The position numbers were made by a program, and so were the translations under genes. From the NCBI GenBank assembly GCA_029571985.1, contig JAKQVC010000126.1, forward strand, positions 1 through 46,023: DNA of 46,023 nt, written 5' to 3'. Below are positions 13,444-25,986 of the stretch, piece by piece. The stretch is from Bacteroidota bacterium (GTDB taxonomy: Bacteria; Bacteroidota; Bacteroidia; Chitinophagales; BACL12). How positions within the stretch are numbered: the stretch's first letter is position 1; each line of letters opens with the position of its first letter. A model generated the notes under the pieces. The model searched no databases and had not been told where the DNA came from. It was given only the letters and a program-made list of their open reading frames with translations.

Positions 13444-14043
13444 TTATTGTAATAATTCTGGATGTTTTTGCGCATCTTCCAGTACATCAATATCGGAAAG
13501 TTGTTCCAATAAGACGTATGATTGTTGATGTACCGTAATATCTTTGATGGTTTCGCTTAACAGTTCAGAAGTGCTCCACGATTTATCCTGAAGTACCCAG
13601 CGATGCCATTTTTTCATGCCAATCAGATAATATCCACCATCCATAGCCGGGCCAATAACAAAATCATGTTGCGCAAGTGCTGAAAATGCGGATTCAATAT
13701 GGTTTTGCGTGAGCTCGTAACAGTCGGCACCCATCATCACAACCTGTTTGTACTCGTTTTTGAAAGGTATACTAAACGCATAATCCATTCTGATACCAAG
13801 GTCGCCACTGCATTGCGTGTATTTCTTATATCGGGCATTTGGAAATATATCCGCACGATTGATGGTATCTGAATAAAACAGAAATACATCCGTTTCAAGG
13901 TTGGTGGTGACCTCCAAAACGCGCTGCAACAATTTTTCATACACCTTGAGAGTAGCTGCATCACCAATATCCTTGGCTAATCGTGTTTTCACGGTTCCCG
14001 GGATTGGATTTTTGAGCATGATTATGAGCGCCTGATTTGCCAT
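13444..14043 (-). CDS. DUF2064 (TIGR04282-type) glycosyltransferase
   Basis: The start is set at the ATG at 14043 (MANQALIIML), where the GT-A fold begins; a promoter-like element just upstream supports it. The 199-residue protein keeps the family signature NPIPGTVKTRLAKDIGD, the GADCYELT segment (in place of the usual G-T/N-D-x-P-x-L) and FVIGPAMDGGYYLIGM. The family is annotated as arsenosugar-biosynthesis glycosyltransferase because it lies beside ArsS in many genomes; direct biochemical proof of that role is limited to my knowledge. No arsS is present here. It points away from a second DUF2064 gene, with 227 bases between the two chosen starts. Confidence 0.87.
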   Translation of the reverse strand: MANQALIIMLKNPIPGTVKTRLAKDIGDAATLKVYEKLLQRVLEVTTNLETDVFLFYSDTINRADIFPNARYKKYTQCSGDLGIRMDYAFSIPFKNEYKQVVMMGADCYELTQNHIESAFSALAQHDFVIGPAMDGGYYLIGMKKWHRWVLQDKSWSTSELLSETIKDITVHQQSYVLLEQLSDIDVLEDAQKHPELLQ

Positions 14044-14065
14044 TGCAGCCTGTATATTATTTCCG

Positions 14066-14098
14066 TAAAAATAGGGTATAATTCCAGTATGCCTCAAA
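14066..14098 (-). promoter_or_regulatory. Putative promoter of the minus-strand DUF2064 gene
   Basis: On the minus strand TTTG (14095-14098) is separated by 21 bases from TATTTTTA (14066-14073), close to the TTTG-N19..21-TAnnTTTG promoter form. Transcription would begin about 15 bases before the ATG at 14043. Confidence 0.5.
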
Positions 14099-14247
14099 CT
14101 GTACCAATTCTGCTACACTGTTTACCTGGAATTTCCTCCACTGGTAGGAGCCATTTCCGTAATGTTAAGGGATGAGTGTATGTCAAACAATCCATTTGTG
14201 GCTCATTTACGTATCTGGGTGTTAACAGTCAAGTATGACAGCGGTTG

Positions 14248-14255
14248 TATATTTG
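14248..14255 (+). promoter_or_regulatory. -7 box TATATTTG before the plus-strand DUF2064 gene
   Basis: A perfect TAnnTTTG element. Transcription from it would start near 14261, downstream of the ATG at 14235 but just before the in-frame GTG at 14271, so it argues for the GTG start. The -33 region (GTTA near 14222) is weak. Confidence 0.45.
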
Positions 14256-14270
14256 CACATTACGAATCAG

Positions 14271-14966
14271 GTGTCAGGTAAGACTGCCATATTAATCTTT
14301 ACGAGGACTGCGGCCGAAGAGGCCGTGCAGAAATCCTTTGTTGGCCCGGGTAGTTTACGCGCCAATACGCTGATTGCAGCCAGTTTAATACGGCATACGG
14401 TTGAAACCGTGAAGGCTTCAGGTATACCGTTTTTTACGGTGTATTCCGACCAGCAGCATGGCATTGGGTTTGGTCAGCGACTGACAAATGCCATGGCCGA
14501 TGTTTTTGAGCTGGGTTTTGAGCAGGTAATTGCCATTGGTAATGATAGTCCTGACCTGACACCCGGATTACTCGTGCTGGCGCAGCAGCAGCTCACTGAA
14601 AAGGGGGTGGTGTATGGCCCGGCGCAAGACGGTGGTGTGTATCTGATTGGCGTTACCCAACAGGCGTTCTCACAGGCAAACCTGGTGCAACTTCCCTGGA
14701 AAACCGCAGGGTTAATTGAAGCCATTGAACACTATGCCACGCAGTATGGATTTTCTACCGCAGTTTTATTTCCTCTACAGGATATTGATAAACAGGAAGA
14801 TTTTACCCGCTGGTTATTTCAAACCGCAGGCATTGATTTTCTTGCCCTCAGAATTAAACAATTAATCAGAAAGGCGATAATTGGATTCGCCTCTATTAAA
14901 ACCATTACCATGGAGGCCGCCTATCTTCGGCCTTTTGGGTTTAGATCGCCCACTTTTATGTATTGA
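14271..14966 (+). CDS. Divergent DUF2064 glycosyltransferase-like protein
   Basis: I use the GTG at 14271, giving a 231-residue protein that opens with SGKTAILIFTRT, matching the first strand of the paralogue on the other strand. An ATG at 14235 would add 12 residues but lies upstream of the -7 box at 14248. The C-terminal half is clearly DUF2064: AIGNDSPDLTPGLL and VVYGPAQDGGVYLIGV. The N-terminal substrate loop is altered: the usual PxPGxVKTRL is replaced by TAAEEAVQKSFVGPGSLRA, so the K-T-R triad is lost while the sugar-nucleotide core remains. It may use another acceptor or donor. It is followed by an inverted repeat and then the TonB receptor, as the first gene of the plus-strand series. 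Confidence 0.8.
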   Translation: MSGKTAILIFTRTAAEEAVQKSFVGPGSLRANTLIAASLIRHTVETVKASGIPFFTVYSDQQHGIGFGQRLTNAMADVFELGFEQVIAIGNDSPDLTPGLLVLAQQQLTEKGVVYGPAQDGGVYLIGVTQQAFSQANLVQLPWKTAGLIEAIEHYATQYGFSTAVLFPLQDIDKQEDFTRWLFQTAGIDFLALRIKQLIRKAIIGFASIKTITMEAAYLRPFGFRSPTFMY

Positions 14967-15032: not shown

Positions 15033-18020
15033 ATGAAACGTCATTTATTTACCTATTTATTTATACTCGTGTCTGCTGTCGGATTTGGGCAGGTTGACAT
15101 CAACGTGTTTGTCACCGATCAACTTTCCGCTGCACCTATTGACCAGGTTCAGGTTCAATTATCTAATGCCGAAATTGGCTATTCTGTATCTGCTAACACA
15201 GATGCTGATGGTAATGCGCAATTTCGCAGTCTCTCCATAAGCGGAGAATATACGATTACCATTGCCGAAACGTCAACCTGGTATGGAAATACCATTTCCG
15301 GCATTGAGTTGCGCAGTAATTACAATCCAAGTATTATCATTTCACTCGCAAAAAAGAGTGAAGTCACTTTGGGAGAAGTTAAAATTGTTGGTAATAAAAC
15401 AGCTCAAATGAATACTTCGAATGCAGAAGTTGCAGGGGAGCTTAAAATCAGCGAGATTAAACAAATTCCTGTTGAAGGCCGCGATATCTCACGCGTATTA
15501 TATCGCCTGCCAAATGTTACACAAGCAACCGGCTTTTATCCTGAAGCACCAAACGTGTCCATTAATGGTTCTAACGGACTTTTCACGAATTACCTGATTG
15601 ATGGTATGGATAATAACGAGCAGTTTTTGGGTGGTCAGCGATTTGCCATTCCTGTTGGATTTGCAAAAAACGTAACCATATTAACAAATAATTTTTCTGC
15701 GGAATATGGTTTAACAGCAAATGGTGTGGTTAACGTAACTACCAGAAGTGGCTCTAATGATTTTAGCGGAGAAGCTTTTGTAATAACCAGACCAGGAGCA
15801 GTTATTGATGCTGAAAGTCCTTATGCACAGCGCGATTTAAGTGGTAATCAGGTAATGGACGGATTTCAACGCTATCAGGCAGGTTTAGGTTTTGGCGGAG
15901 CAATTGTGCCCGACAAAACATTCTATTATATGAATGTTGAATTAACACGCGATATTAAAGATAACCTGCTTACTGTTCCTCAATTAGGGGTAAATGAAAC
16001 GATAAGAGGAGAAAATAACTTTGCTTACATCAGCGGTAAACTTGACCATAACTGGAGTGATCGTTTTCGTTCATCGCTGCGTGTGAATACCGGTATTGTC
16101 AATATCGACAGACAGGGTGGTGGATTAACCGGTGGTGTGTTATTTCCAAGTGCAGGCGATGAGCAGGACAGAAATTCGGCCAACATTGCTTTGAAAAATA
16201 ATTACCGCGGTGCGAACTGGAGTATGGAAACAAACTATCAATTCAGTCGTTTCCGCTGGAATTATGCTGATCCGAATAATCCGGATAATCCGGGTGTAAC
16301 TGTTTTGGACCCACTTGATCAGGTAGTAGCTGTTATCGGTCATCCGGGTTATGTATTTGATGACCTGGCAAATACGCATCAGGTACAACAAAAATTTAAT
16401 TTTTATCGCAATAACCACACTATTAAAACCGGTGTGGAATTGATCTCGACACACCATGATTTATTTGGTGGCGGTACACCTGCCGGATATTATACCGTTA
16501 AATTAAATGAAGCACAATTGGATGGCATCGTTGCCTCCGGTGTTGGCGCAGATTTAAATGTAAACGATATTCCGGCTGATATAGAAGTGTTGGCTTATAG
16601 CGTTGAACTCATGCAAAAATCTATTAGCGCAACGCAAACAGTTTTCAGCGCCTATGCAGAAGATGAAATTAAAGTAAACAGTAAATTAAAGCTGACCGCT
16701 GGTGTTCGCTATGATATTGATAACTTAAGCAAAGGCGGAAGCTCAAAGCTTGATTTAAATAATATTGGTCCGCGTATTTCTGCTAACTACAAATTAAATA
16801 ATACCAATAGTATCCGTTTTGGATATGGTATTTTTTATGATAAAATTAATTATGCCCTCTATAGCGATGCGCTTCAACAGAACAGCACAAATGCCGACTA
16901 TAAAGCGCAATTGCAGGAGCTGATCAACTTAGGTATACTTCCGGAAAGCACCGATTTGGACTTAGTTACTTATGATGGCAATTTATCCGCATCGGCAACT
17001 AATGTATCTTATTTACAAGGCCCGTCTCCGGATGATTTACAGGATCAGCGCGGCGATTTGTTTGCATATGAGCGCCGTATCCTGAATCCAAATGGTTACC
17101 AGAATCCATTTGCGCATCAACTCATGCTGGGTTATCAGCGTCAGTTAGATGATGATAAATTATTTTATGTAGATCTGGTGTATAACCGTTCCTATAATTT
17201 ATTCAGACTTGTTGATTTAAATGCACCGGAAGCTTTCCCGATTGATGAGAACTTCACACCGGATGATATTCGCACTGAAACAGAAGCGGATTTAACCCGA
17301 CCAATTCCGGTATATGGTAATTATGCTGTTATTAATGGAGACACCCTGACAGGTATTTCTAAAAATATTGTGATGACAGAAACAGCCGGTGAGAGTGAAT
17401 ATTATGCAGCGAGCTTTAATTTTCAAAAAGAAAGAGGAGATGATAACTATGCTTTGCGTGTCATTTATACCTTGTCATTATTGAGAAATAATACCGAAGA
17501 TATCAACTTCAAGGCGATGGATGCTAACAATTTCGATAACGAATGGGGTCCATCTATCAATGATCGCACGCATGTAATTAACGTATTGTATTCATATTAT
17601 CCGTGCAAAGGTCTTACACTGACTTTAGCCTCCTTATTGCAAAGTGGTCAGCCAATCAACCGCATCCCTGATGCCAGTATTTATGGCACCACTGATTTAA
17701 ATGGTGATGGCCGTTCATTTGGTGCTGCTTACGTAGGTAACAGTGACAGGTCGCCGGGCGAAGAACGCAATAGCGACAGATTGCCTTGGAATACATTGTT
17801 TGACCTTGGAGCAGAGTATGCATTTTCAATTGGTGATAGCAAACTTTCTGTTCGCGCAGATGTGTTTAATTTGCTCAATGCTGAAAATTTGAGCGGATAT
17901 TCAAATAATGCGACACAAAGCAATCAGATTCAGGTTGGTCCTGCATCAAGTGGCAATTTGCTCATTAAAAATTCAGGTGCACCTCGTCAATTCCAGTTTA
18001 GCTTGTTATATAATTTTTAA
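15033..18020 (+). CDS. Oar-like TonB-dependent outer-membrane receptor
   Basis: The 995-residue protein has a signal peptide (about 1-20, ending GFGQ), an N-terminal carboxypeptidase-regulatory-like beta-sandwich (about 21-115), a plug domain (IPVEGRDISRVLYRLPNVTQ, then SINGSNGLFTNYLIDGMDNNE and FSAEYGLTANGVVNVTTRSGSNDFSGE) and a long barrel ending in aromatic-terminated QFSLLYNF. It is of the Oar/SusC-like large class, but no SusD partner follows, so it is not a polysaccharide utilization pair. Instead a binding lipoprotein and a complete ABC importer follow, suggesting that it takes the same substrate across the outer membrane. A 12-bp terminator hairpin separates it from that lipoprotein gene. 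Substrate unknown. Confidence 0.93.
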   Translation: MKRHLFTYLFILVSAVGFGQVDINVFVTDQLSAAPIDQVQVQLSNAEIGYSVSANTDADGNAQFRSLSISGEYTITIAETSTWYGNTISGIELRSNYNPSIIISLAKKSEVTLGEVKIVGNKTAQMNTSNAEVAGELKISEIKQIPVEGRDISRVLYRLPNVTQATGFYPEAPNVSINGSNGLFTNYLIDGMDNNEQFLGGQRFAIPVGFAKNVTILTNNFSAEYGLTANGVVNVTTRSGSNDFSGEAFVITRPGAVIDAESPYAQRDLSGNQVMDGFQRYQAGLGFGGAIVPDKTFYYMNVELTRDIKDNLLTVPQLGVNETIRGENNFAYISGKLDHNWSDRFRSSLRVNTGIVNIDRQGGGLTGGVLFPSAGDEQDRNSANIALKNNYRGANWSMETNYQFSRFRWNYADPNNPDNPGVTVLDPLDQVVAVIGHPGYVFDDLANTHQVQQKFNFYRNNHTIKTGVELISTHHDLFGGGTPAGYYTVKLNEAQLDGIVASGVGADLNVNDIPADIEVLAYSVELMQKSISATQTVFSAYAEDEIKVNSKLKLTAGVRYDIDNLSKGGSSKLDLNNIGPRISANYKLNNTNSIRFGYGIFYDKINYALYSDALQQNSTNADYKAQLQELINLGILPESTDLDLVTYDGNLSASATNVSYLQGPSPDDLQDQRGDLFAYERRILNPNGYQNPFAHQLMLGYQRQLDDDKLFYVDLVYNRSYNLFRLVDLNAPEAFPIDENFTPDDIRTETEADLTRPIPVYGNYAVINGDTLTGISKNIVMTETAGESEYYAASFNFQKERGDDNYALRVIYTLSLLRNNTEDINFKAMDANNFDNEWGPSINDRTHVINVLYSYYPCKGLTLTLASLLQSGQPINRIPDASIYGTTDLNGDGRSFGAAYVGNSDRSPGEERNSDRLPWNTLFDLGAEYAFSIGDSKLSVRADVFNLLNAENLSGYSNNATQSNQIQVGPASSGNLLIKNSGAPRQFQFSLLYNF

Positions 18021-18074: not shown

Positions 18075-19295
18075 ATGCGTACATTATTGGTTATAGTTTC
18101 TGTATTAGCTGTTTTAAGTTCTTGTAAACAGGATAAAGCGCCGGCTATCAGCGATAGCGAAGTGCTGGCATTGCCATGGGACAGTATTGTTGCTCATGCC
18201 AAAGGCACAACCGTGCATCTTTCCATGTGGCAAGGTGATCCTTTTATTAATGCCTATTTGCAAGACTATGTGGTGCCTCAATTGGAACAATTGTACGACA
18301 TCAATCTGGTCATTTCTGCCGGACAAGGCAATGAAATTGTCAAAATGGTCATGGCGGAAAAAGAAGCCGGTGTGAAGTCAGGCAATATGGATATGGCCTG
18401 GATTAATGGTGAAACCTTTTTTCAATTGCGTCAGGTAAATGGATTGTTTGGACCTTTTACTGATAAATTACCGAATGCACAATTTGTTGATTTCGACAAC
18501 CCATTTATCGGCATCGATTTTCAACAAAAAATTGATGGCTATGAAAGTCCCTGGGGTAATGTGCAGTTAGCTTTAATATATGATACCTTAAAAACACCAA
18601 ATCCGCCAAAAGATTTAGGTGAACTATCAGCCTTTGTGCAGGCACACCCGGGTCAGTTTACTATACCCTATGAGTTTACCGGATTAACTTTATTAAAAAG
18701 CTGGTTAATTGCGCTTGCAGGCGGTGGCGATGCCTTGAGCGGTCCGTTTAATGAAGAGGCCTACATGAAGTATTCAGCCATGCTGTGGGATTCAATTAAT
18801 GCGATGAAGCCCTACTTTTGGAAAGAAGGAAAAACCTTTCCGAATTCTGTTGCCAATATGCACCAAATGTTTGCAAATGGTGAAATAGCCATTACCATAA
18901 GCAATAATGATGGTGAAGTAGATAATAAAGTAATACAGAAATTGTTTCCCACCTCATCCAGAAGTTATGTCATGCGGAGCGGAACAATTCAAAATTCGCA
19001 TTACATGGGTATTTTAATTAACGCACCTAATAAACCAGGGGCCATGGTGGTGGCCAATTTTTTAATGAGTGCGGAAGCACAGTATGAGAAAATGAAACCT
19101 GCTGTTTGGGGCGATGGTACGATTTTGAACCTCAAAACACTATCGCCGGAATGGCAACAAAAATTTGCAACTATTCCTGATCGCACCTATGCACCGAAGC
19201 GCATAGATATTCAACCATATGCCCTCATGGAAATTGCACCAGAATATATGATTCGGATGTTTGATGATTTTAGAACAGAAGTAATTGAAAAATAA
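18075..19295 (+). CDS. YnjB-like ABC transporter substrate-binding lipoprotein
   Basis: The 406-residue protein begins with a lipoprotein signal peptide (LAVLSSC, Cys17). It matches the COG4134/YnjB type of periplasmic binding protein: a GQGNEIVKMV segment, MDMAWINGETFFQLRQ, a GPF...LPN block, and GYESPWGNVQLALIYDT, which aligns with the conserved ExPWGxAQF region. The family sits near the ThiB/FbpA group (thiamine, iron, spermidine) but its substrate has not been settled. As a lipoprotein in a diderm it is probably tethered to the inner membrane beside the permeases encoded immediately downstream. It overlaps the next gene by 11 bases. Confidence 0.85.
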   Translation: MRTLLVIVSVLAVLSSCKQDKAPAISDSEVLALPWDSIVAHAKGTTVHLSMWQGDPFINAYLQDYVVPQLEQLYDINLVISAGQGNEIVKMVMAEKEAGVKSGNMDMAWINGETFFQLRQVNGLFGPFTDKLPNAQFVDFDNPFIGIDFQQKIDGYESPWGNVQLALIYDTLKTPNPPKDLGELSAFVQAHPGQFTIPYEFTGLTLLKSWLIALAGGGDALSGPFNEEAYMKYSAMLWDSINAMKPYFWKEGKTFPNSVANMHQMFANGEIAITISNNDGEVDNKVIQKLFPTSSRSYVMRSGTIQNSHYMGILINAPNKPGAMVVANFLMSAEAQYEKMKPAVWGDGTILNLKTLSPEWQQKFATIPDRTYAPKRIDIQPYALMEIAPEYMIRMFDDFRTEVIEK

Positions 19296-20139
19296 GCAAA
19301 CACATATTCTCCTTGCTGTTTTTATTGCAATAACCGTATTACCCATACTGGCGGGGTTTATTTATGCGGCGCTTTCCGCATTTGGCCTGGCCGGATATCT
19401 GGGAAATGGATTTACCTGGATGTATTGGCAGCAGGCATTTGATATGCAGGTATTGCCGGCAATCGGTTTCTATAGTTTAGCCATCACATGTGTTGTCCTG
19501 TTCTTGGCAACAATTTTCGGGATGTTTGTTGTTTTATATTTTAAGGAAAAAACACAATCAGGTGTTTTGTCCTATTTGCTGTATTTGCCGATGGCGATTC
19601 CTTTAATTGCAGCAGCCTCTCTTACCTTACACTTTTTAGGTAATGCCGGATTATTAGCCCGCTTTGCTTATATGTTAAACCTGATTGAATCACCTGGCGA
19701 TTTTCCGGATATGGTGCAGGATAAATGGAGTATAGGCATCGTAATCACACATACCATTATTGCAGCAGCCTATTTCAGTATTTTATTTTCAGCTATTTTT
19801 AAACAGAATGCCATTCAGGCATATATGGATGCAGCCCACACGTTAGGCGCCGGGAAAAAGCAGGTTGTTCGTAAAATTGTTTTACCACTGGTGCTCAATA
19901 AAGCACTGCCTTCTATTATTTTGTATGGGGTATTTATTTTTGGTTCATATGAGGTGCCTATGTTATTGGGCCAGCAGGAACCACAAATGATATCTGTTTC
20001 TATCGCACAAAAATTCACCAGATACAATCTGGCAGATGTGCCGGTTGCATATGCACTCGCTTCCATGTATACCATCGTAGTGGTAGGTGTTTTATTTATT
20101 TTATATAAAAAAGGTAAACTTATACATGAGGTGGAATAA
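19285..20139 (+). CDS. ABC transporter permease, first subunit
   Basis: The frame starts with a TTG at 19285 that overlaps the end of the binding-protein gene; there is no ATG near the first membrane helix, so this start is likely but not certain. The 284-residue protein has six predicted membrane segments and the cytoplasmic EAA loop around MDAAHTLGAGKKQVVRKIVLPL, which docks onto the ATPase. In E. coli YnjC the two permease halves are fused in one chain; here they are split into two genes. It overlaps the next permease by 14 bases, which implies translational coupling. Confidence 0.86.
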   Translation: MKNKQTHILLAVFIAITVLPILAGFIYAALSAFGLAGYLGNGFTWMYWQQAFDMQVLPAIGFYSLAITCVVLFLATIFGMFVVLYFKEKTQSGVLSYLLYLPMAIPLIAAASLTLHFLGNAGLLARFAYMLNLIESPGDFPDMVQDKWSIGIVITHTIIAAAYFSILFSAIFKQNAIQAYMDAAHTLGAGKKQVVRKIVLPLVLNKALPSIILYGVFIFGSYEVPMLLGQQEPQMISVSIAQKFTRYNLADVPVAYALASMYTIVVVGVLFILYKKGKLIHEVE

Positions 20140-20893
20140 ACATATCGTATTTGCCTTCGGTATGGTTTTTCTCCTTTTGCCGATTGCTTTGTTGCTGATG
20201 CTTGCATTTGCAACTGAATGGCGATTTCCTGATGTGCTACCCGCAGCTTATACTCTTGATCACGCCAAATTGGCTTTTTCCGGTGGTCGCGGAATTATGA
20301 GCCCGCTGATATTAAGTTTAGGCATTGGTGCACTGGTCAGCATAACCTGTGTTGCACTGGCGCTATTTGTTTCACGTATGATAGCCCTTCACCCAAAGCG
20401 GAATTTACTATTGTTTATCGCTTACCTGCCTTTTGTTTTATCGCCGGTAATTTATGCGGCCTGTGTTAATTATTATTTTGTCCTGTTCGGATGGAGTGGC
20501 ACCTTTATGGGTATTTGTATTGCGCAAAGCATACTTATTTTTCCATATAATGTCATATTATTTCAATCGCATTGGAATAATTCCATGGAGGCATACGGTC
20601 AGCTTTCAGCCACGTTGGGTGCGGGAAAATGGCAAACGTGGAGATATGTATGGTTGCCTATGTCAAAACAAATGGTGCTCATCGCCTTGTTTCAGAGTTT
20701 TATTGTTAGCTGGTTTGAGTTTGGTTTAACTAATTTTATCGGCGCAGGCAAGGTGCAAACACTTACCATTCGCGTATATCAATATATTGGTGAAGCGAAT
20801 ATATACCTGGCTGCCTTTAGCAGTCTGATTTTAATTTTGCCACCCTTGGTATTGTTATGGATAAATAAAAAATTTGTATTGAGAAATTATTAA
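20126..20893 (+). CDS. ABC transporter permease, second subunit
   Basis: The ATG at 20126 (MRWNKHIVFAFG) is chosen because it is the first before the opening membrane helix and gives a short overlap with the previous gene. The 255-residue protein has six membrane segments and an EAA-type loop, AYGQLSATLGAGKWQTWRYVWLPM. It should pair with the preceding permease to form the channel of a binding-protein-dependent importer. The ATPase gene starts two bases after its stop. Confidence 0.87.
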   Translation: MRWNKHIVFAFGMVFLLLPIALLLMLAFATEWRFPDVLPAAYTLDHAKLAFSGGRGIMSPLILSLGIGALVSITCVALALFVSRMIALHPKRNLLLFIAYLPFVLSPVIYAACVNYYFVLFGWSGTFMGICIAQSILIFPYNVILFQSHWNNSMEAYGQLSATLGAGKWQTWRYVWLPMSKQMVLIALFQSFIVSWFEFGLTNFIGAGKVQTLTIRVYQYIGEANIYLAAFSSLILILPPLVLLWINKKFVLRNY

Positions 20894-20895
20894 GC

Positions 20896-21615
20896 ATGCA
20901 TTTGATAGCCCAGGATATCCATAAGCGTTTCGGCAATGAAGCAGTATTGCAGGGCATTCATATGTCTATTCAACAGGGACATACACTGAGTATACTGGGA
21001 AAGTCGGGATGTGGTAAAACAACCTTGTTGAAAATACTGGCCGGATTAATACCTGCAGATTCCGGTAAAGTACTGTTGGAAGATATAGATGTTACCCAAA
21101 CAGCACCTCAGGTTCGGCAAATTGTTTATCTCTATCAGGAGCCATTATTATTTCCGCATCTCACCGTTTTCGACAATATTGCTTTCGGACTCCGAATTCG
21201 AAAACTTCCGGAGGATGAAGTGCATCAACAAACATTTAACATGTTAGATGCGTTGGGTATGCGCATGCATTCGGATAAGCGCCCATCGGCCTTAAGTGGC
21301 GGTCAACGACAACGAGTGGCCTTTGGACGTGCAATTGTGATTAAACCTAAGGTATTGCTTTTGGATGAACCATTTGGTAGCTTAGATGCAGAAACCAGAC
21401 AGCAGATGCAAAGCCTTTTTAAACAACTGGTGGGAACATATCAGATAACCTCTGTGTTTGTAACACATGACATTAAAGAGGCTTTATTAATGGGCGATCA
21501 TTTTTCTTTTATGCGTAATGGCACGTTAACTACCTACGGGGATAAAAGCCAGTTTATGCAGGATAAGGAAACAGGGGTGGCTCAGGAACTTCAATTTTGG
21601 CAAAATATTGTATGA
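20896..21615 (+). CDS. ABC transporter ATP-binding protein, YnjD/ThiQ-like
   Basis: A complete 239-residue nucleotide-binding subunit: Walker A GKSGCGKT at 35-42, Q-loop YLYQEP near 81, signature LSGGQRQR at 133-140, Walker B VLLLDEP ending near 159, and the switch histidine in VTHD. There is no C-terminal regulatory domain, as in small ThiQ/YnjD ATPases. It energises import by the two permeases upstream. Its stop codon overlaps the start of the radical SAM gene as ATGA, so transport and radical SAM functions are translated from the same message. Confidence 0.93.
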   Translation: MHLIAQDIHKRFGNEAVLQGIHMSIQQGHTLSILGKSGCGKTTLLKILAGLIPADSGKVLLEDIDVTQTAPQVRQIVYLYQEPLLFPHLTVFDNIAFGLRIRKLPEDEVHQQTFNMLDALGMRMHSDKRPSALSGGQRQRVAFGRAIVIKPKVLLLDEPFGSLDAETRQQMQSLFKQLVGTYQITSVFVTHDIKEALLMGDHFSFMRNGTLTTYGDKSQFMQDKETGVAQELQFWQNIV

Positions 21616-22562
21616 ACGCTCAACCATATACACATTGTGCATCTGTTTATTGGGTTTTTACTCAGTTGTGTAACGATCAATGTGATCATTGTTATAATCT
21701 GAGCGGACCTCAGGGCGCCAGAATCTCAACGGAAGAGTGCCTACAGATTGTTCAAAATCTGCCTGAAAAAATGGACCGCCTCATTTTAAGCGGCGGCGAA
21801 CCTTTAGCAGATAAAGCAAAATTATACGCCATCTTAGACGCTGTCAAACAACGTTATGGCAATGCAACCCAGGTGATGCTGCAAACCAATGGCGATTTAT
21901 TGAATGAAGCCATTCTCGATGAACTGCTGGCTAAGGGAGTCAGTCGTTTTGATATTGCCAGTATCGACAGATATCACAAGAAAAAAGGTGAACGCATTGA
22001 AATCTTGCGCAATTTATTTTTATCGCGAGGACTGAGCGACGATAACACTAAACCACTCGTTGAAAAAGAAACCTATCTGCATACCGATGCACCAAGTTTT
22101 GGATTTTGGGGCGCTACTGAAGATATGTGGCTGGGCGGAAATTGGGCTCGCGGTCGCGCAATGGAAAAAAATATATGGAAGAAAGATCCTGAACATAATT
22201 TTTGCAAAATATTATCCGGTGCTATCGGATTTTTAGGTGGTGTTGATGAAGTGCCTCAGGAAATTAGTATTCAATTATGGAAGATTAATCCCTGCTGTCC
22301 GGGTACCTTATACCCAATGGGAGATGCCCGGATAGAAAAAGTGAGTGATGTGCTTTTGCGCGTTTCAGAAAATCCTGTTTTTCAGGCGCTGAACCAGGGT
22401 GAACCTTGGAAAATGGGTGAACATATGGGCATCTCCTACGAAGAGGCAAAAGCCAAAACGCAGGAATTGGAAAATATTTGTTTGTACTGCGACCATTTTT
22501 TTGGATTGCACATGCAACCGGATAACGAAAAATTTATTGCTTTACCACTTTATCACTATTGA
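21612..22562 (+). CDS. Radical SAM enzyme with extra C-terminal cysteines
   Basis: The ATG at 21612 overlaps the ATPase stop (ATGA). The 316-residue protein has the canonical cluster motif CNDQCDHC (Cys20, 24, 27), GGEP at 61-64 for SAM binding, and QTNGDLL and IASIDRY strands of the partial TIM barrel. The C-terminal third holds further cysteines: Cys198, the CC pair at 228-229 in NPCCPGTLYP, and CLYC at 290-293. These could bind an auxiliary iron-sulfur cluster or a metal(loid). It lacks the ArsS features I know, so I do not call it ArsS; the reaction is unknown. Its place in the transporter operon suggests that it acts on the imported compound or makes one that is moved. Confidence 0.88.
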   Translation: MNAQPYTHCASVYWVFTQLCNDQCDHCYNLSGPQGARISTEECLQIVQNLPEKMDRLILSGGEPLADKAKLYAILDAVKQRYGNATQVMLQTNGDLLNEAILDELLAKGVSRFDIASIDRYHKKKGERIEILRNLFLSRGLSDDNTKPLVEKETYLHTDAPSFGFWGATEDMWLGGNWARGRAMEKNIWKKDPEHNFCKILSGAIGFLGGVDEVPQEISIQLWKINPCCPGTLYPMGDARIEKVSDVLLRVSENPVFQALNQGEPWKMGEHMGISYEEAKAKTQELENICLYCDHFFGLHMQPDNEKFIALPLYHY

Positions 22563-22563
22563 T

Positions 22564-23208
22564 ATGATTAATGCTTGCGTAGTTAGTAATGGCATAGAGG
22601 GCATCGAAAACATGTTCAGGTCTAATCAAAGGGTGTCGTATACACTGCTGCCAATTGGTCCTCAATTTAATCCGGATTTTAGTCCGTTCGATTTGCTGAT
22701 TGTGCCGAATGGTACAGATAATATTGCCATGTTCAACATTAAACATCTGGTGGCTGAATTCCTCAATGCCGGCAAGATGATGTTTTGCTTTGATGGCTGG
22801 TTTACAGATTGGGTGCCCGGAAATACATGGATCATGGACAACGCACATAAAACCATTGATATCCGCTACCGGATTGTACAGGATCGCTACAAATTGTTTG
22901 AAGGAATTGATTTGCATCAATTTATTTTTTCTAATGGTATCAGCGGCTGGTGGGCTTGCGGACATATTCAGGCAGCACCGGGTGCAGATATTATTTTGGA
23001 AGATACCTGGCAGCAGCCTATCATGGTATTGGATGAAGTGAGTACGAATGGCACCATGCTGCTCACCGCCAGCGGACCTATGGCTGATATGTTGTTCGGC
23101 ACCAATGACGATGGCCAGGATTCATGGCAGGAAGTGGGTCGCTTTTATCAAAAATTAATTTCCTGGGCTGAAACTAAAATACATCAACCTAAAACGATTG
23201 ACATATGA
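22564..23208 (+). CDS. GATase-like protein A of a tandem pair, function unknown
   Basis: The ATG at 22564 begins one base after the radical SAM stop codon. The 214-residue soluble protein has alternating strands and helices: INACVVSNG, FDLLIVPNGTDN (44-53), FLNAGKMMFCFDGWFTDW (66-83), LFEGIDLHQF and GHIQAAPGADIIL. The layout resembles the class I glutamine-amidotransferase/ThuA-like flavodoxin fold, in which P-N-G marks the first active-site strand, but no nucleophile-elbow Cys with His-Glu can be assigned with confidence. It aligns by eye with the next protein (IVP, AGK, W, G-A-x-V/I), so the two are tandem duplicates. Cys75 and Cys132 stand in otherwise conserved positions. No known function. 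Confidence 0.75.
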   Translation: MINACVVSNGIEGIENMFRSNQRVSYTLLPIGPQFNPDFSPFDLLIVPNGTDNIAMFNIKHLVAEFLNAGKMMFCFDGWFTDWVPGNTWIMDNAHKTIDIRYRIVQDRYKLFEGIDLHQFIFSNGISGWWACGHIQAAPGADIILEDTWQQPIMVLDEVSTNGTMLLTASGPMADMLFGTNDDGQDSWQEVGRFYQKLISWAETKIHQPKTIDI

Positions 23209-23858
23209 GTAAGCATAAAATTGGATTGATATTCAATGGCGTTTGGAGTCAGTATACTTTTGCCAAAGCAGAGAAATACAAAGATATCGTTGAATTAGTG
23301 TACGTATATGATGTTACCGATGCAGCTGTAGCCACATACGATGCATTAATCGTCCCGTTTCAAAGTAATCAGTCGGCCTTAGCCGAACGCAAACAGGTAT
23401 TATTTAATTTTTTAGCTGCCGGAAAAAAAATATTTATTGAGGGCGACTGCACCCATAATTGGCTGGATGCAATCTGGGAAGACAGGCCTGTAAATAATTA
23501 TTGGTGGGTAAAAGATCCGAATAACCCACCCATTGCACATACCAATTTTGAACACCCTGTTTACACCGGATTGAAGCCGCGTCATGCCTGTTGGCACACA
23601 CATGGTGCTTATACCAAAATTCCTGAAGGAGCCGAGGTAATTCAAACTACAGCCGATGGTGAAGTGATTACCTGGCAGACGACACAGTATGGCGGACTAC
23701 TGATGGCAACAACACTGGATCCTATTGTTGAACATGGCATTCAGCAAATTACGCATTTAGATAACTATACTGACAAATTGATTGCGTTTCTTTGTGGTGT
23801 GCAACCAACAGGTGCCTTCAACTTTAACCGTGCCGATTTTGGTATTACGCTGAATTGA
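23205..23858 (+). CDS. GATase-like protein B of a tandem pair, function unknown
   Basis: The start overlaps the stop of protein A as ATGA, so both are probably made together. The 217-residue protein shows IGLIFNGVWSQYTF, YDALIVPFQSNQ (45-56), FLAAGKKIFIEGDCTHNWL (69-87), HPVYTGLKP and CWHTHGAYTKIPEGAEVI (129-146), with GGLLMATTLDP near the end. The fold again looks like a class I GATase-like alpha/beta domain. The Cys129-x-His131-x-His133 cluster and Cys82-x-His84 are notable as possible metal or metalloid ligands, and they are not the same positions as in protein A. A heterodimer is plausible but not shown. It is followed after 25 bases by the ArsM-like gene. Confidence 0.75.
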   Translation: MSKHKIGLIFNGVWSQYTFAKAEKYKDIVELVYVYDVTDAAVATYDALIVPFQSNQSALAERKQVLFNFLAAGKKIFIEGDCTHNWLDAIWEDRPVNNYWWVKDPNNPPIAHTNFEHPVYTGLKPRHACWHTHGAYTKIPEGAEVIQTTADGEVITWQTTQYGGLLMATTLDPIVEHGIQQITHLDNYTDKLIAFLCGVQPTGAFNFNRADFGITLN

Positions 23859-23883: not shown

Positions 23884-24675
23884 ATGAGTAAAACTATAAA
23901 GGAAACCATCATCACCGATTACACCGCTATCGCCTTATATGCAGCGCAACAGGGCGCAAATGCACAGCGCGATACCATTTGTAAACCGATTTATGATCCA
24001 ATTGATGCTGATTACAAACAAAAAGCAGGCTATATCGATGAAGTAAACCTGGGTTTGGGCTGCGGATTTCCTTTTGATCATGCAACTATAAAAGAGGGTG
24101 ATGTAGTGGTTGACCTTGGCTGTGGTGCGGGTATCGATACCTTTATTACCGCAACTCGTGTTGGCGAATCCGGTAAGGTGATAGGTATAGATCTCACAGA
24201 AAAATTATTGCAATACGCCGCCTATTTTGCCAAGAAAAAGGGCATAGGCAATGTTGCCTTCCAACAGGCAGATATGGAGCGTATTCCGCTCAAAGAAAAT
24301 TGTGTGGATGTGGTGCTCAGTAATGGCGTGTTTAGCCTCACCTCCGATTTAGATAAAGTGCTGTCTGAAATCTATCGCATCCTAAAACCGGGTGGAACCC
24401 TCAGTTTCAGCGATATGACCTGCAAAGGAAGTTTTACGAAACCGGTGCTGAACAATATGATTTACTTCACCGGATGCCTAAATGGTATCAGCACCCAAGA
24501 GTCCTATCTGCAGGCATTGCAAAGAGCAGGATTTCAATCCATAGAACTCGTAGAGGAGCGCATCATCCCCATTCCGGCCGATATCATCGAAACGTCTCCC
24601 GACCCCGACGAATACAAAGAATTACAAGACGGAACCCGCTGTTTTATTGTGTCTACGATTACTTGCAAGAAGTAA
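23884..24675 (+). CDS. ArsM-like SAM methyltransferase lacking the middle cysteine
   Basis: The 263-residue protein is a Rossmann SAM methyltransferase with motif [14 protein letters not shown] (75-87), GIDLTEKLL and [13 protein letters not shown]. It shares with ArsM the signature LGLGCGFP (Cys60) and, late, YFTGCLNG (Cys198). At the site of the middle arsenic-binding cysteine it reads LSNGVFSL (Gly148) where the canonical ArsM downstream reads VSNCVLNL. Two of three conserved thiols thus remain, and the N-terminal and C-terminal CC clusters of the neighbour are absent. The enzyme should bind SAM, but arsenite is unlikely to be its substrate in the usual three-thiol mode. It ends the transporter/radical-SAM series and lies upstream of arsR. 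Confidence 0.88.
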
Positions 24676-24698: not shown

Positions 24699-24730
24699 TT
24701 TGGTGCATATACCAATCCATCGTAATTTTA
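24699..24730 (+). promoter_or_regulatory. Putative arsR promoter
   Basis: TTTG (24699-24702), 20 bases, then TAATTTTA (24723-24730), one base off TAnnTTTG. The -7 box lies inside the operator dyad at 24719-24734, so a bound repressor would block the promoter. Confidence 0.6.
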
Positions 24731-24734
24731 CGAT
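24719..24734. promoter_or_regulatory. Putative ArsR operator 1 (before arsR)
   Basis: ATCGTAATTTTACGAT: perfect 7-bp arms ATCGTAA/TTACGAT around two bases, 12 bases before the arsR ATG. The same dyad, with only two central bases changed, is found before arsM at 25098-25113. Confidence 0.75.
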
Positions 24735-24746
24735 TGAATTACGAAT

Positions 24747-25079
24747 ATGGGTATCAGTAAACTGGAAGAATTTACCGTGCGCGACAATCGTCTCGCAAAA
24801 TATGCCAAAGCTTTATCGCATCCGGCACGCGTAGCTATTCTCAGACTACTTATCGAAAAGCAGGCCTGTGTATGTGGTGATATTGTCGATGAGCTACCTC
24901 TGTCGCAAAGCACTGTCTCTCAGCATTTGAAGGAATTAAAGGAAGCCGGTTTGATTAAAGGGGATATTGAAGGCGTGCGTATTTGTTATTGTATCGATGA
25001 AGTCGCCTGGGAGCAGGCTAACACTTATATCAATAGTCTTTTCGAAAGCTATACAGCCGGAAAGATTAAATGTTGTTGA
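24747..25079 (+). CDS. arsR: ArsR/SmtB-family metalloid-responsive repressor
   Basis: A 110-residue winged-helix protein with the ArsR core [17 protein letters not shown] and the recognition helix [18 protein letters not shown]. The helix-3 metal-site motif CVC is at 41-43 (ACVCGDIV), as in arsenite-sensing ArsR proteins of the E. coli type; further cysteines lie at 80, 82 and at the very C-terminus (CC, 109-110), any of which could be the third As(III) ligand. It probably represses itself and arsM: two matching 16-bp dyads precede the two genes. No such dyad is seen before the TonB receptor or the ABC genes. Confidence 0.93.
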
Positions 25080-25097: not shown

Positions 25098-25113
25098 ATC
25101 GTAATAATACGAT
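25098..25113. promoter_or_regulatory. Putative ArsR operator 2 (before arsM)
   Basis: ATCGTAATAATACGAT: perfect 6-bp arms ATCGTA/TACGAT around four bases, 27 bases before the arsM ATG. It matches operator 1 at 14 of 16 positions. A TTTG at 25085-25088 may belong to an arsM promoter, but no good -7 box is apparent. Confidence 0.72.
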
Positions 25114-25140
25114 GTTATTATAACCATAAAATTGAATCAT

Positions 25141-25986
25141 ATGTTACACGAAATCGATGTAAAAGAAATGGTAAAGCAGAAATACGCTGAAATTGCCAAA
25201 CAGGATAAAGAAACCAATATGACATCTTGCTGTGGTTCGGGCTGCTGCACAACTGAAGTATACAATATCATGAGCGACGACTACTCAACGCTCGAAGGCT
25301 ATAACCCGGATGCTGATTTGGGTTTGGGCTGCGGATTGCCAACGCAATTTGCTAAAATTAAAGCCGGAGATGTGGTGGTTGATTTGGGCAGTGGTGCCGG
25401 TAACGATTGTTTTATTGCACGCGCTGAAACCGGAGAAACCGGCAAAGTTATCGGTATTGATTTCACACCTGAAATGATCGAAAAAGCCAGAGCAAATGCC
25501 GATAAACTTGGATTTAATAATGTGGAGTTTCGTCAGGGCGACATCGAAAAAATGCCGTTGACCTCCAATATCGCTGATGTAATTGTCAGCAATTGTGTGT
25601 TGAATCTGGTGCCCAATAAAGATGGTGTATTTAAAGAAATGTTTCGCGTATTAAAACCCGGCGGACATTTTAGTATCTCAGATGTCGTATTGATGGGTGA
25701 ATTACCTGCATCACTCAAAAATGTGGCAGAGATGTATGCCGGATGTGTAAGCGGCGCTATTCAAAAGGAAGTATATCTGGAATTAGCTAAAGCGAATGGC
25801 TTTACACAAATCACCATCCAAAAAGAAAAGGCCATTATTATTCCGGATGATATTCTGGCCAATTACCTAACCCAAGGTCAAATCACCGAATTCAAAAACG
25901 GACAAACAGGTATTTACAGTATCACCGTTTATGCTGAAAAGCCTTTGGAAGAGAAGGCTTGTTGTGGAACGGATTGTTGTTCTTAA
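25141..25986 (+). CDS. arsM: Arsenite methyltransferase ArsM
   Basis: The ATG at 25141 is used; a TTG nine bases upstream is less likely. The 281-residue protein has the SAM motif VVDLGSGAGNDCF, and the three conserved arsenic-binding cysteines in their usual contexts: GLGCGLP (Cys64), SNCVLNL (Cys152) and AGCVSGA (Cys202), equivalent to Cys72/174/224 of the algal enzyme. It should methylate As(III) stepwise to methyl- and dimethyl-arsenicals. Both ends carry extra cysteine pairs, SCCGSGCC (30-36) and ACCGTDCC (274-280), which may collect or hand over As(III). It lies downstream of arsR and its own operator copy. Confidence 0.95.
   Translation: MLHEIDVKEMVKQKYAEIAKQDKETNMTSCCGSGCCTTEVYNIMSDDYSTLEGYNPDADLGLGCGLPTQFAKIKAGDVVVDLGSGAGNDCFIARAETGETGKVIGIDFTPEMIEKARANADKLGFNNVEFRQGDIEKMPLTSNIADVIVSNCVLNLVPNKDGVFKEMFRVLKPGGHFSISDVVLMGELPASLKNVAEMYAGCVSGAIQKEVYLELAKANGFTQITIQKEKAIIIPDDILANYLTQGQITEFKNGQTGIYSITVYAEKPLEEKACCGTDCCS

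Follow-up and report, generated by a model that had tools for sequence, protein, structure and literature searches.

A diverged ArsM paralogue with glycine at the middle arsenic-binding cysteine may have been repurposed in a Bacteroidota bacterium

We describe an ArsM-like methyltransferase whose middle arsenic-binding cysteine is replaced by glycine within an SNG motif (hereafter the SNG protein), encoded on contig JAKQVC010000126.1 of a Bacteroidota bacterium; the whole stretch of 46,023 nt that we analysed is referred to as the window. The reading we favour, with a probability of about 45%, is that the protein is a diverged and repurposed ArsM paralogue that would methylate a soft nucleophile other than As(III) or methylarsenite. 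The gene lies directly upstream of an arsR-arsM pair:

23884-24675 (+): SNG methyltransferase (ArsM-like class I SAM methyltransferase), 263 aa; G148 at CmArsM Cys174; C33, C60 and C198 kept
24719-24734 (no strand): palindrome ATCGTAATTTTACGAT, probable ArsR operator, before arsR
24747-25079 (+): ArsR/SmtB-family regulator; NF033788, 75.9 bits (cut-off 55)
25098-25113 (no strand): second palindrome ATCGTAATAATACGAT, before arsM
25132-25986 (+): canonical ArsM with SNC; PRK11873 arsenite methyltransferase, 367.8 bits (cut-off 263)

The SNG protein and its family assignment

The open reading frame is intact, starts with ATG and contains the motifs LGLGCG (C60), SNG (G148) and TGC (C198). CmArsM-equivalent numbering follows a phmmer alignment with the CmArsM chains 4kw7/4fr0 of the PDB, in which C33 corresponds to Cys44, C60 to Cys72, G148 to Cys174 and C198 to Cys224; of the four cysteines of ArsM, just one is missing. 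The original prediction, that the LGLGCG and TGC cysteines are retained and that SNG stands where the adjacent ArsM has SNC, was confirmed from the sequence, and its view that the SAM core of this paralogue is intact and that the gene is not obviously dead was borne out by the undamaged reading frame and a match to Pfam Methyltransf_31 (112.9 bits). The 84 aligned canonical ArsM proteins have Cys at position 148 without exception, where the two bacterial SNG proteins have Gly (for the second see below), thus Gly148 lies beyond ordinary variation.

The best NCBIfam match is PRK11873 arsenite methyltransferase, with a score (221.3 bits) below the cut-off of 263 that the neighbouring ArsM clearly exceeds; the second SNG protein scores 180.4 bits. 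Compared with ArsM/AS3MT (PRK11873; 4fr0, 4kw7), the SNG protein is alike in fold family by sequence, in the SAM motif and in cysteines 44, 72 and 224, but it has Gly at Cys174, the exchanges N151S, T64F and A196T, a score under the PRK11873 cut-off and no ArsR box. AlphaFold2 models of the SNG protein and the neighbouring ArsM, each built from a two-sequence alignment, had a mean pLDDT of about 57 and were too poor for a comparison of the pockets. That the SNG gene arose from the neighbouring arsM by recent tandem duplication was ruled out, as the SNG protein shares 37% identity with that ArsM, compared to 61-65% for the ArsM orthologues of the family.

Consequences of cysteine loss in known enzymes

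In characterised enzymes, ArsM requires both Cys174 and Cys224 for As(III) and methylarsenite (PMC3877260), and at these positions the SNG protein has G148 and C198. The mutants CmArsM C174A and hAS3MT C156S methylate neither As(III) nor MMA(III) (PMC3877260), which argues that As(III) and methylarsenite are both unlikely substrates of the SNG protein. A trivalent organoarsenical, one of the substrates originally suggested, is thereby weakened as far as methylarsenite is concerned; the other two suggestions, another element or a thiol, stay candidates. First-cysteine mutants, on the other hand, still methylate MMA(III), and dimethylarsenite is bound by one cysteine (PMC3877260). Moreover, one cysteine is enough for TtArsM of Thermus thermophilus (TTC0109) to methylate As(III) (PMC8649762), so that cysteine loss alone is no proof of a changed substrate. 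Both TtArsM and the SNG protein are ArsM-like without the standard arsenic-binding cysteines; in TtArsM, however, one cysteine is left, histidines are proposed as ligands and activity on As(III) has been demonstrated, whereas the SNG protein is known from its sequence.

These precedents bear on a rather doubtful alternative, namely that the SNG protein is still an arsenic enzyme and would complement the ArsM next to it. Its substrate would be an arsenical for which fewer thiolates suffice (such as dimethylarsenite, or an arsenical bound to a thiol), or ligands of another kind would stand in for Cys174. The single-cysteine binding of dimethylarsenite and the activity of TtArsM speak for it, as do the adjacent arsR-arsM genes and the retention of C60, C198 and a Cys at about position 33 in both bacterial SNG proteins, which share just 35% identity. 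However, both SNG proteins also retain 44 of 85 conserved ArsM columns, so the survival of three cysteines is unremarkable, and the corresponding single mutants have no activity on either As(III) or MMA(III). The surroundings of the two genes argue in the same direction: the second SNG gene is not near ars genes, and no ArsR box precedes the gene in the window.

The latter point rests on a palindrome, ATCGTA-N4-TACGAT, which occurs twice in the 4.0-Mb genome, before arsR and before arsM, and nowhere else; 0.01 chance matches are expected in the window. Among the ArsM loci fetched from the phylum, 22 others contain a palindrome of this form, and we regard the motif as a probable conserved ArsR operator. 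The genome-wide palindrome search gave no ArsR-type palindrome before the SNG gene. In the genome of the second SNG protein (G002) the motif is absent altogether; its absence before that SNG gene is thus uninformative.

A second SNG protein in the phylum

The second bacterial SNG protein (SNGVFSL; 35% identity) is encoded at L038:9308-10108 in G002, a genome of the same family and a different genus. An alignment of the two proteins was searched against 395 genomes of the phylum and 349 of the order (partly overlapping sets), and gave 511 and 521 bits for the two SNG proteins and at most 237 for everything else. Among 82 distinct ArsM-like proteins read from fetched loci, 80 have SNC and 2 SNG, and in a first set of 100 relatives the strong matches fetched had SNC. 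No third SNG member was found in about 700 genomes of the phylum, for which the strong matches were read, so that a distant SNG protein could escape. A search of 247 phylum genomes with the SNG pattern returned the gene at 23884-24675 and four other sites; the reversed control pattern also matched once in the listed genomes, thus these four sites are at about chance level.

A search of genome contigs with the full SNG protein yielded one distant Streptomyces methyltransferase. Two protein scans of viral contigs gave no confirmed relative; the SNC pattern matched 11 viral contigs, none with an ORF resembling the SNG query, and the SNG pattern matched none. Phyla outside Bacteroidota were sampled via plasmids only.

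The two bacterial SNG proteins group together with an SH-aLRT support of 99 in a quick tree and with 100/98 in a careful tree. In the careful tree their branches (3.1 and 6.0) are far longer than those of canonical ArsM (median 0.53, longest 1.2); since the pair sits on the longest branches, the grouping is open to long-branch attraction. The pair has 19 of 69 non-canonical residues in common, as compared to 6-10 of 54-58 shared with unrelated haloarchaeal SNG proteins. Going by the tree and these shared residues, we are dealing with a small, fast-evolving SNG lineage with two known members rather than a lone mutation.

A very long branch and the loss of a catalytic residue would also fit a decaying, functionless arsM duplicate. 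We consider this very improbable: the reading frame and SAM core are intact, and the Gly148 change together with other derived residues is shared with a second genus at 35% identity, which suggests long retention.

SNG proteins on haloarchaeal plasmids

A match on a Salinirubellus plasmid, annotated just as methyltransferase, carries the motif SNGVINL, which recurs in three relatives on other haloarchaeal plasmids, so that four such SNG proteins (L109, L112, L113 and L114) were read in all. Each of their genes follows an OsmC gene. They have SNG, Phe64 and the last cysteine (C198) in common with the bacterial pair, but C60 is missing, and in the quick tree they fall with other ArsM, apart from the bacterial SNG proteins. 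The haloarchaeal proteins apparently represent a separate, independent loss of the ArsM middle cysteine. Position 64, four residues beyond the Cys72 equivalent, is Phe in 6 of 6 SNG proteins and Thr, Gln or Lys in the 84 canonical ArsM. That Phe64 accompanies Gly148 in both, apparently independent, lineages is suggestive. It is nevertheless unlikely, in our estimate, that ArsM was converted to a non-arsenic substrate more than once, in this family and in haloarchaea, via Gly at Cys174 together with Phe64.

The upstream transporter and radical SAM cluster

Upstream of the SNG gene lies a row of genes on the same strand:

15033-18020 (+): TonB-dependent receptor-like outer-membrane protein, first gene of the cluster; named from sequence; orthologues head the cluster in G002, G003 and G005
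18075-19295 (+): ABC substrate-binding protein, PRK11622 family, 369 bits (cut-off 203)
19285-20139 (+): ABC permease 1
20087-20893 (+): ABC permease 2; true start may be downstream
20896-21615 (+): ABC ATPase
21597-22562 (+): radical SAM protein with CNDQCDHC; no specific NCBIfam family above cut-off
22564-23208 (+): ThuA-like protein 1; name inferred from sequence, no Pfam/NCBIfam match
23205-23858 (+): ThuA-like protein 2; name inferred from sequence

The TonB-ABC-radical SAM cluster recurs in three further genomes of the family. The ThuA-like pair beside it belongs to no Pfam/NCBIfam family and, among these three genomes, was seen in G002 only; in G003 and G005 no such pair was found next to the radical SAM gene.

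The stop codon of the second ThuA-like gene (23858) and the SNG start (23884) are separated by 25 bp, which makes co-transcription plausible, and the SNG gene is probably transcribed together with the cluster. This spacing on one strand is what favours a role as partner of the cluster, in which the protein would methylate the pathway product or an imported ligand. We hold this to be quite unlikely, however, as the orthologous clusters in G002, G003 and G005 contain no methyltransferase; nor is there one on a Natribaculum plasmid in a similar row of transporter genes, which encode a binding protein, a protein related to ThuA-like protein 1, another hypothetical protein, a permease and an ATPase. 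Furthermore, the SNG gene of G002 lies elsewhere, between lolA and kefF-kefC on one strand (L038 8589-12659). The SNG protein is thus not a fixed part of the operon, and across these gene orders its gene is best described as a lineage-specific addition to the upstream cluster. The expectation of an SNG clade found with the radical SAM operon therefore held in part: a second member exists in another genus, but the association with the operon was not supported, the three related operons being without a methyltransferase.

The combination of ArsM with the radical SAM protein ArsS would allow arsenosugar synthesis. This route was rejected, as a scan of the genome for ArsS (TIGR04167) gave a best score of 32.4 bits, and 21.4 bits for the radical SAM protein of the window, against a cut-off of 300. 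A TIGR04282-like pair, which carries the NCBIfam name of arsenosugar glycosyltransferases, is encoded at 13444-14097 (-) and 14235-14966 (+); the protein of the latter gene scores under the TIGR04282 cut-off, and the genome has no ArsS above cut-off.

A possible change of substrate

For repurposing we count the invariant Cys (84/84) against Gly, the long branches, the PRK11873 scores below cut-off, F64 and the residues shared by the pair, as well as the inactivity of C174A and C156S, the missing ArsR palindrome before the gene, and the intact reading frame and SAM core. Against it we count the three of four cysteines kept and the arsR-arsM genes directly downstream, both of which fit a remaining arsenic role, as well as the one-cysteine activity of TtArsM and possible long-branch attraction.

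If the protein was repurposed, loss of the Cys174-type thiolate would have removed the two-thiolate clamp for As(III) and methylarsenite, and we infer that the methyl group would pass in line from SAM to another soft nucleophile seated at the arsenic position, in a pocket that may be reshaped by G148, F64 and F150. The simplest candidate, guessed from the chemistry at this site, would be a small thiol or a conjugate of one. The UbiE-family enzymes MddH and MddM2 (PMC12904073), SAM methyltransferases for small thiols, serve here as a functional model only.

These considerations matter wherever arsM genes from genomes or metagenomes are taken to indicate arsenic methylation. With C33, C60 and C198 the SNG protein passes the rule of at least three of four conserved cysteines (PMC5552862), yet it probably performs no methylation of inorganic arsenic. 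Its substrate, if found, would show a route from an arsenic enzyme to another nucleophile.
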